A stretch of DNA of 48,064 nucleotides from Gemmatimonadota bacterium (GTDB lineage: Bacteria > Gemmatimonadota > Gemmatimonadetes > Gemmatimonadales > Gemmatimonadaceae): positions 1 through 48,064 of the forward strand of contig JAJPIS010000120.1 of assembly GCA_021324635.1 (NCBI GenBank), read 5' to 3'. The notes under the pieces were generated by a model. It was not told the DNA's origin. It ran no database searches and saw nothing but the letters and a program-made list of their open reading frames with translations. Below are positions 21,562 to 45,004 of this stretch, one piece after another; the first letter of the stretch is position 1, and each line of letters begins with the position of its first letter. Position numbers and translations under genes: made by a program.

Positions 21562-21601
21562 GCGAGCGGCGCTGAGCGAGCGACGCTGAGCGTGCGGGCG
21601 G
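21546..21601. repeat. 14-bp tandem repeats at the DUF2231 stop codon
   Basis: The unit GAGCGAGCGACGCT occurs at 21546-21559, 21560-21573 (one change) and 21574-21587, with a degenerate fourth copy to 21601. The gene's TGA stop spans the junction of the first two units. Confidence 0.85.
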
Positions 21602-38639: not shown

Positions 38640-40418
38640 GTGCTCGTGTATCGGCGCCTCGACCGGTGGGTCCTGACCGAGAGCCTCGTCGACGATGTAT
38701 CGCGTGCCGCCGGTCGCCTCGCGCGGTCGACGACTGGCGACACGCTCGAGCGGCACGACGCGGCGGTCGGGTTGCTCATCGATCTGGGAGTCCTCGAGGC
38801 CGGTGCGGCCGATGCGCTCTGCCCGGAGGCGGACGGTCACGATGCGCGGCTGGACGCGGTCCGCGCGGCGACTCTCGCGGCTGCCCACGTGGTGGTGGAT
38901 TCCTGGGAAGGGCGGTCGCCGGGGACAGCCGTGTGCGCCGTGTCCGAGGCCGTGGGCAGGCTGACGGGCGTTCGCCTGCCATCGCGGATTCGCAGCGCCG
39001 TCCCCGAGGGGTACGCGTTCTATGGCCTCTACCCGGAGATGTACATCGACGCGGCGCAGTGCGTCCGCCGCACCCTGGATCCCGCACGGGCGCTGATCAT
39101 CGGGCTCCGCAGCATCGGAACGAGCCTCTCGGCGCTGGTCCACGCCACGCTCGCGGCGACTGGCTGTCCCACCCGCTCGTTGACCGTTCGCCCACGCGGG
39201 CACCCCTTCGACCGACGGGTGCGTCTCGACACGCAGTTGGGGGACGACATCGCCCACGCGGTCCGCGCCGGCGCCCACGTCGCGGTCGTCGACGAAGGGC
39301 CGGGGCTGAGTGGCTCGTCGATCGCCGGGACGGTCCGCGCGCTGATCGCGCTGGGTGTCGACATGGGCCGGATCATCGTCCTGCCGAGCTGGGACACGGA
39401 AGGCGCGTCGCTGTGCTCCGCCGATGCGCGGGCGCTGTGGCCGCGGCTGCGCCGGTTCCCGGCGAGCTTCGAGCGGAGCTGGCTCGCATCGGGGCGCTTT
39501 CGGCGCCTGCACTCGGCGGCCGCGTCCGAGGACCTGGGGGCGGGTCGTTGGCGCGCGCACGCGTTCCGCTCGGCCGGAGATTGGCCCGCCGTGCAACCGC
39601 AGCACGAGCGGCGAAAGTTCCTCATCCGAGTCGAGTCGGCGGCGCGTGCCGCGACGCCCGTGCGCGGCGAGTGGCGGCTCGTCAAGTTCGCCGGGCTCGG
39701 TCGCTACGGGGCGGCCAGGTTCGCGCGCGCCGACGCGCTGGCGGCAACCGGCTTCACACCCCGACCGATCGCCTGGCGTGCGGGCTGGTTGGTGCAGGAA
39801 TTCGTGCCCGGGCGGCCGCTCGTCCCGGGCGAGGGTGGGCTCCTGTTTGCCGATCGCTGCGCGCGGTATCTCGCGCACGTCGACCGCGCGTTCCGGACGG
39901 ACACGTCGCCCGATATCGACGCCCTGGTCGAGATGGTCGAGGCCAATGTGCGCGCATGCCGTGCCGCTGCCGGGATGACACCGCAGCTCCGCCGACTGCT
40001 CCGGCGGTCACGCGGCGCGGTGGCGGGCGCGCCCGCCGTGGCCGTCGATGGGCGCATGCTCCCGCATGAGTGGATCCGTACCCGTCGTGGCCTGCTCAAG
40101 ACCGATGCGCTCGACCATCACGATGATCACTTCTTCCCCGGCCCGCAGGATTCGGCGTGGGACGTCGCGGCCTGCTGCGTCGAGCTCGGGCTTCGCCGGC
40201 TGGCGCGCGCCCATCTCGTCGACACATTCGAGCGGATCGCGCGTGTGCGCGACCTCGCCCGGCGGCTGCCACTCCATCTCGTCGCCTACTCGGCGTACCG
40301 GTTCGGGTACATGACACTCGCCGCACAGGCGACCGCCGGGAGCGACGACGCGGCGCGACTCGCCGCCGGGTCGGCCCGCTACGCGCGCTGCCTCCGCCGG
40401 TTCCTCGCCGCCGCGTGA
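38640..40418 (+). CDS. phosphoribosyltransferase-like and APH-kinase-like fusion protein
   Basis: A 592-residue protein that I cannot assign to a named family. The N-terminal half (about 110-260) looks like a type I phosphoribosyltransferase: PEGYAFYGLYPEMY, ALIIGLRSIGTSLSAL and the PRPP-loop-like VAVVDEGPGLSGSSIAG (216-230). The C-terminal half (about 330-590) resembles small-molecule kinases of the APH type: WRLVKFAGLG (candidate ATP-contacting Lys349), LVQEFVPGRPL hinge, LPHEWI near the catalytic loop, and DHHDDHFFPGPQDSAWDVA with a metal-binding Asp. A nucleotide-like or phosphorylated small product is inferred. GTG 38640 is the first start in frame; its end overlaps the HAD gene (GTGA). 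Confidence 0.8.
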   Translation: MLVYRRLDRWVLTESLVDDVSRAAGRLARSTTGDTLERHDAAVGLLIDLGVLEAGAADALCPEADGHDARLDAVRAATLAAAHVVVDSWEGRSPGTAVCAVSEAVGRLTGVRLPSRIRSAVPEGYAFYGLYPEMYIDAAQCVRRTLDPARALIIGLRSIGTSLSALVHATLAATGCPTRSLTVRPRGHPFDRRVRLDTQLGDDIAHAVRAGAHVAVVDEGPGLSGSSIAGTVRALIALGVDMGRIIVLPSWDTEGASLCSADARALWPRLRRFPASFERSWLASGRFRRLHSAAASEDLGAGRWRAHAFRSAGDWPAVQPQHERRKFLIRVESAARAATPVRGEWRLVKFAGLGRYGAARFARADALAATGFTPRPIAWRAGWLVQEFVPGRPLVPGEGGLLFADRCARYLAHVDRAFRTDTSPDIDALVEMVEANVRACRAAAGMTPQLRRLLRRSRGAVAGAPAVAVDGRMLPHEWIRTRRGLLKTDALDHHDDHFFPGPQDSAWDVAACCVELGLRRLARAHLVDTFERIARVRDLARRLPLHLVAYSAYRFGYMTLAAQATAGSDDAARLAAGSARYARCLRRFLAAA

Positions 40419-40885
40419 CGCCACGACTCTGGATCTTCGACGCCGACGGCACGCTGCGCCGAACGACCGTGCCGGGTCGCGTGTGCCCACGCTCGCCCGG
40501 TGAGTGGGCGCTGCTGCCCGGCGTGCGGGCGGCGATCGCGCCGCTCGCCGCCGACCCGGCAGTGCTGTTCGCGATCGCGTCGAACCAGGACCAGGTGGGG
40601 TACGGGCATCTCTCGGCCGCCATGGCCGAGCGCCTCCTCCGGGATGCGCTCCGCGCGGCGACCGGCCGCGAGCCGCCGCTCGGTGCGATCGCGTTCTGTC
40701 CGCACCCGCTCGAGATCCCCTGCGCCTGTCGCAAGCCGAACCCCGGACTCCTGGAGTCGCTCCTCGGCCGGTTCGGCGTTCCGCCGTCGGCGGCCGTGTT
40801 CGTCGGCGACCAGCCGTCCGACCGGGCCGCCGCCATGGGCGCGGGCATCGCGTTCCGCTGGGCCGCCGAGTTCTTCGGCTGGTGA
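40415..40885 (+). CDS. HAD-IIIA phosphatase (HisB-N/GmhB-like)
   Basis: A 156-residue haloacid-dehalogenase-type phosphatase. Motif I, IFDADGTL (Asp9 nucleophile, Asp11 acid/base), motif II, IASNQDQVG, the zinc-type loop CPHPLEIPCACRKPNPG with its Lys, and motif IV, VFVGDQPSDRAAA, are all present, as in D,D-heptose 1,7-bisphosphate and histidinol phosphatases. It has no cap insertion beyond the zinc loop. It is translationally coupled (GTGA) to the phosphoribosyltransferase/kinase fusion, so it probably dephosphorylates a product of that enzyme (inference). Confidence 0.9.
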   Translation: MTPRLWIFDADGTLRRTTVPGRVCPRSPGEWALLPGVRAAIAPLAADPAVLFAIASNQDQVGYGHLSAAMAERLLRDALRAATGREPPLGAIAFCPHPLEIPCACRKPNPGLLESLLGRFGVPPSAAVFVGDQPSDRAAAMGAGIAFRWAAEFFGW

Positions 40886-40959
40886 CGCGGCCCGAGCCCC
40901 GCGCGATCGGCCCGCGCGATCGCCCGGCGCGCACTGCCGTGCGGGCGCCCTGGGGCGAG

Positions 40960-40965
40960 TACCTT
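40960..40965 (+). promoter_or_regulatory. -10-like TACCTT for the ATPase gene
   Basis: TACCTT is followed by 5 nt and an ATG at 40971 that opens a 7-codon ORF ending on the ABC ATPase start. It suggests an internal promoter inside the oxyanion-uptake operon. Confidence 0.4.
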
Positions 40966-40970
40966 ACCGC

Positions 40971-40994
40971 ATGCCCGCACGAGGGGTCGTGTGA
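40971..40994 (+). CDS. seven-codon upstream ORF coupled to the ABC ATPase start
   Basis: ATG CCC GCA CGA GGG GTC GTG TGA encodes MPARGVV. The stop overlaps the GTG start of the ATPase gene at 40991 (GTGTGA). With the -10-like box just upstream, a leaderless ribosome would translate these codons and could restart on the GTG. The coding role is speculative; the arrangement is clear. Confidence 0.35.
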   Translation: MPARGVV

Positions 40995-42094
40995 TCGAGT
41001 GCGTGTCGGTGGAAGCGCGCGTCGGCGCCTTCTCGCTTCGCGACGTGACCTTTGCCGTGCCGTCCGGCGGCTATGGCGTCGTGATCGGCCCCGCCGGGTC
41101 CGGGAAGACCACCCTCCTCGAGGTGCTCGGCGGAGTCATCCGGTCGACCACCGGCACGATTCGCCTGGGCGGCCGGGACGCGACGCGACTCGCGCCGGAG
41201 GCTCGCCGCGTCGGGCTGGTCTACCAGCACGCGTATCTCTTCCCGCACCTCAGCGTCGCCCGGAACATCGTGTACGGTGCATCCGGCGATGCCGGGGCGC
41301 GGGAGATCGCCACGCGGCTCGGTGCCGACCGCCTGTGGGCGCGCGACGTTCAGTCGCTGAGCGGGGGTGAGCGGCAGCTCGTCGCCCTTGCCCGCGCTCT
41401 CGCACGGCGCCCCGACGTGCTGCTCCTCGACGAGCCGTTCAGCGCGCTCGATCCACGCCGGCGGGCGCACGTCCGGCGGGAGGTGCGGGCGATCCACCGC
41501 GAGCTCGGGATGACCGTGTTGCAGGTCACGCACGATTTCGCGGAGGCGGGACTCCTGGGCGACGTCGCGATCCTGCTCGACGGTGGCCGGGTGCTTCAGC
41601 ACGGCGCGCCCGACGAGGTATTCCGCCGGCCCGCGTCACCGTACATCGCCGAGTTTCTGGGGGCGGAGAATGTGCTGGCCGGCACCGTCATGCCGTGCGA
41701 CGACGGCGGAGTGGCCGGAGAGGAGCTGGCCGCGGGCGGGGGTCCGGGCGGCGGCGCCGCCCACGCGTCATACCGTGCGCTCGAGTTCCGCGCTGCCGGC
41801 ACGTCGCTCACGATCGTGGCCGTTGGTGAGGCGGACCCCGGGCCGGGCCATGCGGTGATCCGTGCCGAGGAGATCGTCGTGTCGCGCGCTCCGGGCGCAT
41901 CGTCGGCTCGGAACAGCTTCCGCGGTCGCGTCATCGACGTCGCCACGACGGGCGCGCTGACCCGCGTCACCGTCGACGTCGACGGCCTCCCGCTCGTCGC
42001 CGCCCTGACGACTCGTTCCGCCCGGGAGCTGGCGCTGGCGCCTGGCGTCGATGTCTATGCGTCGTTCAAGGCCATGGCCGTGCACCTGTGTTGA
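40991..42094 (+). CDS. tungstate/molybdate-type ABC ATPase with C-terminal TOBE/Mop-like domain
   Basis: A 367-residue ATP-binding subunit: Walker A IGPAGSGKTT (34-41), Q loop VYQHAYLFPHLSV, signature LSGGERQLVALARAL, Walker B VLLLDEPFSALDP and H loop QVTHDFAEA. After residue 235 comes a linker rich in Gly/Ala, then a TOBE-like domain (about 305-365, NSFRGRVIDVATTGALTRVTVDVDGLPLVAALT) that in ModC/WtpC can sense the oxyanion. It should energise the WtpB-like permease at 37780. GTG start. Confidence 0.92.
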   Translation: MIECVSVEARVGAFSLRDVTFAVPSGGYGVVIGPAGSGKTTLLEVLGGVIRSTTGTIRLGGRDATRLAPEARRVGLVYQHAYLFPHLSVARNIVYGASGDAGAREIATRLGADRLWARDVQSLSGGERQLVALARALARRPDVLLLDEPFSALDPRRRAHVRREVRAIHRELGMTVLQVTHDFAEAGLLGDVAILLDGGRVLQHGAPDEVFRRPASPYIAEFLGAENVLAGTVMPCDDGGVAGEELAAGGGPGGGAAHASYRALEFRAAGTSLTIVAVGEADPGPGHAVIRAEEIVVSRAPGASSARNSFRGRVIDVATTGALTRVTVDVDGLPLVAALTTRSARELALAPGVDVYASFKAMAVHLC

Positions 42095-42169
42095 CGGCCC
42101 GGCGTGCCGCGGCGGCACCGGCGCGGGATGCGAGTCGCGGGCGGCATGACTGCCGGGTCAGACATCGGT

Positions 42170-42221
42170 GCGGGCGCACCCGTATGGGCGGCATGCATGC
42201 CGCCCATACGGGTGCGCCCGC
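42170..42221. repeat. perfect 52-bp palindrome between converging genes
   Basis: The two 26-bp arms meet with no spacer at 42195/42196 (GGCATG|CATGCC at the centre) and match without a single error. It lies 75 nt after the stop of the ABC ATPase and 12 nt from the stop of the minus-strand small protein. As RNA from either strand it forms a very stable hairpin, so it is probably a bidirectional terminator, although no T tract is present. Confidence 0.95.
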
Positions 42222-42233
42222 GCAGACGCGGCG

Positions 42234-42395
42234 TTACGGCAAGTAATCCCGGATGAACCGCCGGCCCGCGTACACCCCGCCGGCGGTGCCGACCATGCTC
42301 ACGAGAAAGGCCGCCATGAGGCCGCCGCGCTCGCCGAGCCACCAGCCGGCCGAGCCGCCGATCGTCGCGCCGATCGTCACCACCAAGCGTTCCAT
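42234..42395 (-). CDS. 53-residue two-span membrane protein
   Basis: A short gene at the end of the suf operon. The product starts MERLVVTIGATIGGSAGWWL and has two hydrophobic segments (about 5-19 and 26-42) rich in Gly and Ala, ending in RRFIRDYLP. A GGGAGAGG ribosome binding site lies about 4 nt before the ATG, which supports translation. The G-x(3)-G spacing suggests packed helices, somewhat like AtpZ/AtpI small proteins, but I do not assign it. The gap to the sufU paralogue upstream is 33 nt, so it is probably in the same transcript. Confidence 0.68.
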   Translation of the reverse strand: MERLVVTIGATIGGSAGWWLGERGGLMAAFLVSMVGTAGGVYAGRRFIRDYLP

Positions 42396-42428
42396 GTCGC
42401 CTCTCCCGGGGTCCTGCGAGGAGGACGA

Positions 42429-42929
42429 TCAGCGCTCCGGCGAGTGACCTGACGATGTGGCTTGCTGCACCGCGAGCCGGAGCGCTTCCCAGGGCAGCAG
42501 CGCGCAGGGCAGGCGCGCAGGGACGCGGGCGATCCCGCTCAATGCCCGGAGTGGGCCGAGCGTCTCGTCGGTCGCTGCCGCCGGATCGCCATGCAAGAGC
42601 GCCCGCAGGCGACCCTCGAGTGCTGACAGCTGGCCCGGACTCCGGCCCACGGCCAGGTCCGTCATCATCGAGGCCGACGCCTGGGAGATCGCGCACCCCT
42701 GTCCGGTGAAGCGGATCTCGCTGAGCTGCACGTTGTCGCCGGCACCCCGATCGAGCGTCACCGAGACGGTCACATCCTCACCGCAGAGCGGATTCCGCGC
42801 CGTCGCTTCTCCGTCCGGGTGTGGGAGCCGCCCCTTGCCGTGCGGCCGCCGATAGTGGGTGAGGATCAGCTCCTGATAGAGCGCCTCGCGCGCGGCGGTG
42901 TCTGGCCCGCTGGGCGAGGCGTCAGCCAT
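42429..42929 (-). CDS. sufU: second SufU-like Fe-S/zinc-dependent sulfur acceptor
   Basis: A 166-residue NifU/IscU-fold protein of the SufU type. Cys49 (NPLCGED), Cys79 (GQGCAISQASASMM) and Cys142 (ARLPCALLPWEAL) correspond to the three conserved cysteines, and the insert typical of SufU is present. The residue two after the first Cys, normally a zinc-binding Asp, is Glu51 here. SufU takes sulfur from SufS by zinc-ligand exchange. It overlaps the end of sufS by 8 nt. It is a paralogue of the copy at 44522 and is more divergent. Confidence 0.9.
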   Translation of the reverse strand: MADASPSGPDTAAREALYQELILTHYRRPHGKGRLPHPDGEATARNPLCGEDVTVSVTLDRGAGDNVQLSEIRFTGQGCAISQASASMMTDLAVGRSPGQLSALEGRLRALLHGDPAAATDETLGPLRALSGIARVPARLPCALLPWEALRLAVQQATSSGHSPER

Positions 42930-44172
42930 GCTCCACCGCGGCGCCCGCGGCCGACGCCGGTGGGTCGTCCGCGGGGGCGCCGAAGATCTCCTGGGCCGCG
43001 AGCACCCCGGCCACGAGCGCCTCCACATCGCCCTCGTCGTTGTAGACGAAGAACGACGCCCGCGCCGTGGCCGGCACCCCCATCGACCGCAGCAGCGGCT
43101 GGGCGCAATGATGACCGGCCCGGATGCAGACCTGGCGCTGGTCGAGGATCGTCGCGAGATCGTGCGCGTGGAGGCCGGCCACCGTGAAGCTCACCACGCC
43201 ACTGCGTCCGCCGGCCGGGGGTCCGTACACGCGCACGCCGGGGATCGCAGCGAGGCGGTCGCTGGCGAGAGTCGTCAGTCGGCGCTCGTGGGCACGCACC
43301 GCCGACATGCCGATCTGCGTCAGGTACGTGCACGCGGCTGCCAGCCCGACCGCGCCGGCGACGTTCGGCGTTCCCGCCTCGAGCTTGTGCGGCAGCACGT
43401 TCCACGAGGTCCGGTCGTCCCCCACGACCTCGATCATGTCGCCCCCGGTCTGGTAGGGCGGCATCTCCTCCAGGAGCGCGCGGCGTCCGATCAGCCCGCC
43501 GATGCCCATCGGCCCGCCCATCTTGTGCCCGCTGAAGGCGAAGAAGTCGGCCCCCAACGCGTCGACGTCGACCGCGAGGTGTGGCGCACTCTGCGCGCCG
43601 TCGACCACGACGACGGCGCCGACAGCGTGCGCCAGGGCCGCAACCTCGGCGACCGGGAGGATCGTGCCGATCGCGTTCGAGACGTGCGCAACGGCCACGA
43701 CTCTGGTGCGCGGCGTGATGAGCGACCGGAGGTGGTCGAGGTCCAACTCTCCCGCCGGGGTGAGCTCGGCGATGCGGAACGCGGCCCGACGCTCGATCGC
43801 GAGCTGCTGCCAGGGGACGAAGTCGGCGTGATGCTCGAGTCGCGTGACGACGATCTCGTCGCCGGCACGCACGTGGGAGCGCCCCCAGGCGGCGGCGACC
43901 AGATTGAGCGATTCGGTCGTGCCGCGGGTGAAGATCAGCCGGCGCGGGTCGTCGACGCCGAAGAACCGGCCGACGACCTGGCGAGCCTCCTGGTAGCACT
44001 CGGTCGCACGGGTCGAGAGGTCGTATGCCCCGCGGTGCGGATTGGCGTAGCTGGTCTCGTAGAAGGTCCGCTCGACGTCGAGCACGACGGCGGGCTTCTG
44101 CGCAGTGGCCGCCGAGTCGAGGTAATGGAGGTCCGGGTGGCGGGCCAGGAGTGGGAAGTCGGCGCGCCGCAT
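42922..44172 (-). CDS. sufS: SufS-type cysteine desulfurase
   Basis: A 416-residue PLP enzyme that removes sulfur from cysteine, giving alanine and a persulfide for Fe-S assembly. PLP Lys217 lies in AFSGHKMGGPMG; the active-site Cys356 lies in IRAGHHCAQPL, the group II (SufS) form. TRLEHHADFVPWQ, HVSNAIGTILPV and VVDGAQSAPH are also as expected. The ATG at 44172 overlaps the stop of the Rieske gene (ATGA). It is flanked on both sides, one gene away or directly, by SufU copies. Confidence 0.96.
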   Translation of the reverse strand: MRRADFPLLARHPDLHYLDSAATAQKPAVVLDVERTFYETSYANPHRGAYDLSTRATECYQEARQVVGRFFGVDDPRRLIFTRGTTESLNLVAAAWGRSHVRAGDEIVVTRLEHHADFVPWQQLAIERRAAFRIAELTPAGELDLDHLRSLITPRTRVVAVAHVSNAIGTILPVAEVAALAHAVGAVVVVDGAQSAPHLAVDVDALGADFFAFSGHKMGGPMGIGGLIGRRALLEEMPPYQTGGDMIEVVGDDRTSWNVLPHKLEAGTPNVAGAVGLAAACTYLTQIGMSAVRAHERRLTTLASDRLAAIPGVRVYGPPAGGRSGVVSFTVAGLHAHDLATILDQRQVCIRAGHHCAQPLLRSMGVPATARASFFVYNDEGDVEALVAGVLAAQEIFGAPADDPPASAAGAAVEHG

Positions 44173-44525
44173 CAGCGTCGCCTCGGCGCCACGAGCACGG
44201 CGCCGCCCTCGATCCGCACGGCGTACGTCGCGACATCCTCGAACGCCGGCCCGCGCCGGGCTTCGCCCGTCCGGCAGTCGAATCGCGCGCCGTGCCAGAC
44301 GCATTCGATCGAGCCATCGGGGAGGAGCTCACCCGCCGACAGCGCGTATTCCTCGTGGGAGCATCGGTCGCGGAGCGCGTGCACCGTTCCGCCGTCGTTC
44401 GCCAGCACCACCTGATCGCCGTCCGGCAACCGCACGCTCAGCAGCGTCCCCGGCGGCACATCGCTGACCGCGGCGACGCGCACGAACGTCACCGGGTCCG
44501 GGGGTGCCGAGGCGGTGCGCCTCAC
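44172..44525 (-). CDS. Rieske [2Fe-2S] ferredoxin in the suf operon
   Basis: A 117-residue Rieske-type protein resembling non-heme iron oxygenase ferredoxin subunits. The cluster ligands are Cys55-x-His57 (RCSHEEY) and Cys75-x2-His78 (ECVWHGARFD). It has no signal or membrane anchor. The GTG at 44525 overlaps the sufU stop (GTGA); a GTG at 44492 is an alternative. Rieske genes within suf operons are known in Actinobacteria; a role as electron donor or as cluster recipient is not proven. Confidence 0.92.
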   Translation of the reverse strand: MRRTASAPPDPVTFVRVAAVSDVPPGTLLSVRLPDGDQVVLANDGGTVHALRDRCSHEEYALSAGELLPDGSIECVWHGARFDCRTGEARRGPAFEDVATYAVRIEGGAVLVAPRRR

Positions 44526-44998
44526 GGCGCGCCGAAATCCGGCGGCGGCACCGACCGGAGCGGGGTGGCCGCCTCCTCGAGCGCCGCGTGCATCGCGTGC
44601 CAGGCCAGCGACGCGCACTTGACCCGGGCGGGATACTGCGACACACCGCCCAGCACCGCCAGCCGGCCCAGGGTCGGGTCCGGCGGGCTGCCGGCGGCCC
44701 GGCCCGTCACCAGCGCGTGAAATCGCTGGGCGAGCGTTTCGGCCTCATCGATCGTCCGCCCCGTCACGGCCGCGGTCATGAGCGAGGCCGACGCCTTCGA
44801 GATCGCGCACCCCGAGCCGACGAACCGGATCTCCTCGATCCGCTCCCCCGCGACCCGGACCCAGACCGTCACCTCGTCGCCGCACAGCGGATTGTGTCCG
44901 CGCGCGTGGCCGTTCGCATCGGCCAGGGGCCCGTAGTTGCGCGGCGCGCGATTGTGGTCGAGGATCACGCTCTGGTAGAGCTCGCGCACGTCGGGCAT
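44522..44998 (-). CDS. sufU: SufU Fe-S assembly sulfur acceptor
   Basis: A 158-residue SufU with Cys39 and Asp41 (NPLCGDE), Cys64 (GSGCAISKASASLM) and Cys128 (ARVKCASLAWHAM), the complete zinc site and sulfur-accepting cysteine, with spacing close to that of the Bacillus protein. It begins 7 nt after sufD. It is the canonical one of two sufU copies in this operon. Confidence 0.94.
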   Translation of the reverse strand: MPDVRELYQSVILDHNRAPRNYGPLADANGHARGHNPLCGDEVTVWVRVAGERIEEIRFVGSGCAISKASASLMTAAVTGRTIDEAETLAQRFHALVTGRAAGSPPDPTLGRLAVLGGVSQYPARVKCASLAWHAMHAALEEAATPLRSVPPPDFGAP

Positions 44999-45004
44999 GC
45001 GAGC

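Follow-up and report, generated by a model that had tools for sequence, protein, structure and literature searches.

A perfect 52-bp palindrome between convergent genes of a Gemmatimonadota bacterium: a REP unit probably made symmetrical in place by template switching

How does a perfect palindrome of 52 bp, with arms that meet without a spacer, come to lie between two convergent genes of a Gemmatimonadota bacterium (assembly GCA_021324635.1), and is it a signal, a repeat or an error? The window considered here is the whole stretch of 48,064 nucleotides of contig JAJPIS010000120.1. As the first-pass annotation had stated, positions 42170–42221 are their own reverse complement; this is the longest perfect hairpin of the window (loops of 0–8 nt), the runner-up having 12-bp arms, and under a single-base composition model the chance expectation for a 52-bp palindrome is about 1e-9. 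The placement between converging genes was also right: the stop codons of an ATPase gene (42092–42094, + strand) and of a small membrane-protein gene (42234–42236, - strand) are separated by 139 nt, inside which the palindrome lies. At 42429–44998 the - strand carries Fe-S assembly genes, with SufU (frame 42429–43028) and SufS (frame 42922–44304) named by NCBIfam and a frame at 44522–44998 having a NifU-like look, by eye only. The features of the site are the following:

40991–42094, + strand: ABC-transporter ATPase gene with a TOBE domain, ending 75 nt before the palindrome
42123–42221, - strand: whole array of repetitive extragenic palindromes (REPs), composed of linker, decayed unit, linker and palindromic unit (from the sequence and the family copies)
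42139–42158, - strand: decayed core of a second REP unit in this array (from the sequence and the family copies)
42170–42221, no strand: perfect spacerless 52-bp palindrome with 26-bp arms (self-complementarity)
42170–42174, no strand: GCGGG, family sequence bounding the putatively converted tract and pairing with CCCGC at 42217–42221
42175–42185, no strand: 11-nt tract, exact reverse complement of 42206–42216, putatively overwritten (0/11 consensus match)
42186–42205, - strand: REP core hairpin, the family unit (341 genome places with up to three mismatches)
42206–42209, - strand: REP tag position, here GTAT on the - strand, most other tagged copies having GTAG (copy comparison)
42206–42216, no strand: site-side flank, putative donor of the overwritten tract, starting with the altered tag (flank search, copy comparison)
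42217–42221, no strand: CCCGC, partner of 42170–42174 (copy comparison)
42234–42395, - strand: convergent 53-codon membrane-protein gene, which also adjoins the ATPase gene in both congeners

The palindrome is one copy of a REP family. A search of the own genome (4,086,648 bases) for the 20-bp core GGGCGGCATGCATGCCGCCC gave those 341 places against 3 for the reversed control, four of the 341 being exact. The tagged 24-mer, GTAG plus the hairpin, occurs at 236 places (140 + 96) with up to two mismatches, against 0 for its control, and at 0 places in each of 59 other genomes, which include two of the same genus. In a wider collection of contigs, where records of the own or a very near genome may be missing, the repeat 28-mer matched no stretch; a neighbouring protein matched 14 loci from several phyla at 32–52% identity. 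The usual form of the family, read by eye, is GTAG-GGGCGGCATTCATGCCGCCC followed by GCGAYTCGCATCCCGCACCGATGCC; it was taken from 79 places with up to four substitutions, a few of which are other hairpins or chance, coming from 25 of 27 sources, with two loci that duplicate the window site left out. Units of both orientations are strung into arrays (period about 46 bp), as in BIMEs. Of the 73 sampled cores, 65 either overlap no gene call or lie at the edge of a stretch, but this figure on gene context is unreliable, the crude caller having overlooked even the small convergent gene beside the palindrome. REP clusters are also found within a few hundred bases of the ends of contigs C1, C5, C9, C16, C23 and C24 (loci L020, L022, L017, L024, L013 and L014, respectively), where the repeat probably breaks the assembly.

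The GTAG-tagged REPs and BIMEs described in PMC3733652 and PMC2817692 resemble this family in the short G+C-rich hairpin with GTAG at one end, the hundreds of copies, the arrays in two orientations, the confinement (here to 1 of 60 genomes searched) and a gene for a REP-associated tyrosine transposase (RAYT) that stands between inverted copies. The family differs from the consensus sequences compared in its own sequence, and from these systems in its long mosaic arrays with the above period, and the focal copy differs in its 26-bp arms and altered tag. The palindrome is largely an element of a familiar type, bearing an instructive scar.

To the left of the palindrome, 42123–42174 reads as family sequence, with GCGGGATGCGAGTCGC, the decayed core at 42139–42158 and then CAGACATCGGTGCGGG. 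The first-pass annotation had noticed a partial copy of the palindrome's centre near 42140; the relationship is real, but the sequence is a further, decayed unit of the array rather than a stray copy, and GGGCGGCATGACTGCC (42139–42154) occurs only once in the genome. Both congeners retain the two genes, separated by 46 and 12 nt where the window has 139 nt, and neither has such a palindrome, perfect hairpins with arms of at least 11 bp being absent there except for one inside a gene (L044). Since both congeners keep the convergent genes with shorter gaps and without the palindrome, the array is lineage-specific, as far as three genomes tell.

A candidate for the mobilizing enzyme is encoded in the same genome, whose single Y1_Tnp match is a gene on the - strand of locus L026 (Pfam PF01797, 26.8 bits, cut-off 23). 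It is flanked by inverted units of the family, GTAG-oriented at 648–1354 on one side and CTAC-oriented at 2091–2156 on the other. Its HxH motif and C-terminal tyrosine (H163, H165 and Y226), which we take to be the catalytic residues of the transposase, are invariant in five aligned sequences (the own protein and those of four relatives). In these residues and in its REP flanks it resembles the RAYT or TnpA-REP tyrosine transposases (NF047646, PF01797); the REP-specific model NF047646 is its best NCBIfam match at 77.4 bits, just under the cut-off of 80, and it is a predicted enzyme. Transposase matches were found in 13 of 60 genomes including the own one, four of the 13 at E above 1e-4, and in the three surroundings viewed (L055, L057 and L058) the gene of the relative lies between a hairpin pair of its own sequence. 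Judging from these flanks, the REP array would most likely have arrived through the genome's single RAYT. The suggestion that the palindrome may be a mobile or repeated element has gained support from the genome-wide core copies, from the absence of tagged copies in the 59 other genomes, from the REP-flanked RAYT gene and from the much shorter gaps in both congeners.

The focal copy stands out by its arms. In the tract 42175–42185 it matches the family consensus ATGCGAGTCGC at 0 of 11 positions and pairs with the opposite flank at 11 of 11; in 56 other tagged copies, taken from the sample described below, the same tract retains at least five consensus matches in 54 and two in the other two, and it is paired with the opposite flank at 0–5 of 11 positions. 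The 5 nt beyond the tract are all paired in the focal copy and at 0–4 of 5 positions in the 56 others. Over the 20 nt outside the tract the focal copy matches the family at 16 positions and the others at 4–19, eight of them at 9 or fewer. In the focal copy the tract reads CGCACCCGTAT. Self-complementarity continues beyond the core for 0–2 bp in 72 of 73 sampled cores and for 16 bp in the focal copy only, which led to the rejection of long arms as a general REP trait for this sample. The sample comprises 795,793 bases, that is about a fifth of the genome, in 40 stretches, mostly contigs known to hold the repeat and hence biased toward them, plus the window; one of the 73 cores, at 21596 of the window, lacks family flanks and is probably a chance match. 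A wider repeat as the source of the extended arms was also rejected, as the site-side 19-mer has 7 places elsewhere in the own genome with up to three mismatches against 10 for a control. A double-sided tag without mismatch occurs at two places in the genome, the focal copy and C126:780–807, which extends 6 bp. The latter copy (L130:784), tagged on both sides, has a long right flank (CTACGGTCCGCGCACGCGACGG..) in common with L002:1501 (C15:1666), the core centre and left side being different. The identical exact core is found with ordinary arms in L002, L003 and L004, which have the precursor form expected under a conversion of one arm.

Since the tract has no match to the consensus and yet pairs fully with the opposite flank, which is site-specific, it most naturally reads as a copy of the site-side flank written over the element-side sequence, within limits set by two stretches that could already pair, the core stem and GCGGG/CCCGC. 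A change of this kind, in which one arm takes on the reverse complement of its partner, is the signature of quasipalindrome template switching (PMC7202029, PMC8794818). In the explanation that we prefer, with a probability of roughly three in four, the palindrome is the end unit of a REP array that arrived in this lineage, likely carried by the RAYT, and was afterwards turned into a perfect palindrome in place by a template switch. A small, decayed GTAG-tagged array would have entered between the two convergent genes in the own lineage, and an imperfect palindrome would then have become a perfect one, in place, by a replication template switch. During synthesis of the - strand, the growing 3' end, having reached the far base of the strong REP hairpin, would have folded back, copied 11–16 nt of its own 5' flank and realigned to the proper template via the 5-nt match CCCGC, giving perfectly pairing arms. 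The direction of donation is suggested by the family comparison; alignments of the flanks with the congener gap gave scores that 416 of 2000 shuffles reached for the right flank, no better than chance, and 1165 of 2000 for the left. It counts against the explanation that the eight comparison copies (of 56) with at most 9/20 matches are off the outer consensus too. Additionally, the template switch leaves the central CATGCATG to be accounted for, either by a change of its own or by a core variant already present in the family (four exact places in the genome).

Known cases of such switching are alike in that copying from arm to arm removes the imperfections of an inverted repeat. There the change was a 4-bp insertion in a reporter, whereas here the process is inferred from the comparison of repeat copies, not observed, and concerns an 11-nt tract in a natural REP. 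Among the papers searched, none joins repetitive extragenic palindromes with template switching, and none, judged by title, treats such palindromes in Gemmatimonads.

A first alternative is a functional bidirectional terminator, termination in both directions having been proposed as a likely role; that a perfect hairpin was selected for this between two convergent genes appears rather improbable. The palindrome does sit between two 3' ends, and RNA of 131 nt from the two strands reaches folding energies of -89.6 and -83.2 kcal/mol, a stability that none of 200 shuffles attained. REPs are mostly located between convergent and unidirectional genes in REP-rich genomes (PMC3733652), and other long hairpins occur in the sample, some of them near gene ends as placed by the crude gene caller. 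On the other hand, the G+C-rich hairpin of an intrinsic terminator is followed by a T run, and neither strand has one after the stem here; a scan of 40000–45000 found 0 terminator-like sites, shuffles giving a mean of 0.7; the palindrome is absent from both congeners though they keep the gene pair; and the REP unit is present in hundreds of places in the genome. A canonical terminator was rejected as the main reading on the scan and on the absence from both congeners. A strong hairpin at two 3' ends may still have a passive effect on termination or mRNA decay. Against Rfam, the segment 41900–42500 had seven matches with E values of at most 1; every one scored far under its gathering threshold, five were to miRNA precursor models, which match long hairpins, and all were discarded.

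An assembly or amplification artefact, such as a folded-back read or a collapsed repeat, is quite improbable. The genome is a draft of 127 contigs, several of which end in or near the REP repeat, and the core is self-complementary, both of which would favor such an error. However, a folded-back copy should continue further, and the symmetry ends after 26 bp, with the sequence returning in register to the family on the left and to unrelated sequence on the right; moreover, the outer joint of 5 nt would presumably be too short for a k-mer hop by the usual assemblers. Judged from this anatomy, a fold-back artefact seems unlikely. The persistence of the palindrome had been considered noteworthy in view of SbcCD-type nucleases, an argument that has proved weak. 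SbcCD problems concern much longer palindromes. In the own genome SbcD has a partial match of 64.2 bits against a cut-off of 77.65, and the relevant passages of a review on palindromes (PMC7999016) give no length limit for SbcCD.

Symmetric REPs have also been found in two genomes of the same order, G036 and G051, whose REP forms a perfect palindrome of 28 bp, tagged GTAG/CTAC at each end. This palindrome occurs at 52 and 51 places, respectively, with up to three mismatches (control 0) and is absent from the own genome, and the RAYT locus of G036 (L057) is flanked by two perfect copies, at 1332–1359 and 2148–2175. These REPs resemble the focal copy in being perfect and spacerless, with mirrored tags, and are RAYT-linked (L057); they differ in that the symmetry is a feature of many copies and stops at the tag or close to it (two flanks checked), whereas in the window it belongs to one copy and runs 12 bp past it. 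That the focal copy would likewise be an active transposase substrate on both strands, as its mirrored tag and these related genomes might suggest, is highly improbable, given that only two places in the own genome have a mismatch-free tag on both sides, that the arms continue past the tag into non-family sequence and that the tag is altered to GTAT, changes of bases three and four having abolished cleavage in one REP system (PMC8266576). Another REP system tolerated tag changes (PMC8266576), and the GTAT-tagged copy is, by analogy with the two, probably but not surely an immobile relic.

The same arrays contain a second hairpin family, GGTG(N)CAGGGGCAAT..ATTGCCCCTG(N)CACC, which has 47 places in the own genome and none in the 20 relatives searched. 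Its 14-nt outer arms are perfectly paired in 16 of 16 sampled copies (L078:14732–14770, L081:11913–11951, L102:9454–9492 and 13 others), which carry five arm sequences; the remaining 71 of the 87 loose candidates show at least three mismatches and are chance-like.

With the template-switch explanation, the palindrome becomes the readable record of a two-step history in which a REP array enters a gene border and one of its units is then made symmetrical, and the locus adds a RAYT/REP system from a high-GC lineage. A broader idea, which we consider distinctly less likely than not, is that REP hairpins are hot spots of replication template switching, and that this process, not selection, makes or keeps arms perfect in this lineage. 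The site in the window would show one conversion, and the paired arms of the second family fit what arm copying would produce; selection or a recent spread from few founders would also fit them. Should conversions of this kind turn out to be frequent, template switching would leave a natural record in REP arrays. The complementary changes seen in REP stems would then have a non-selective explanation, where Nunvar et al. (PMC2817692) suggested selection.
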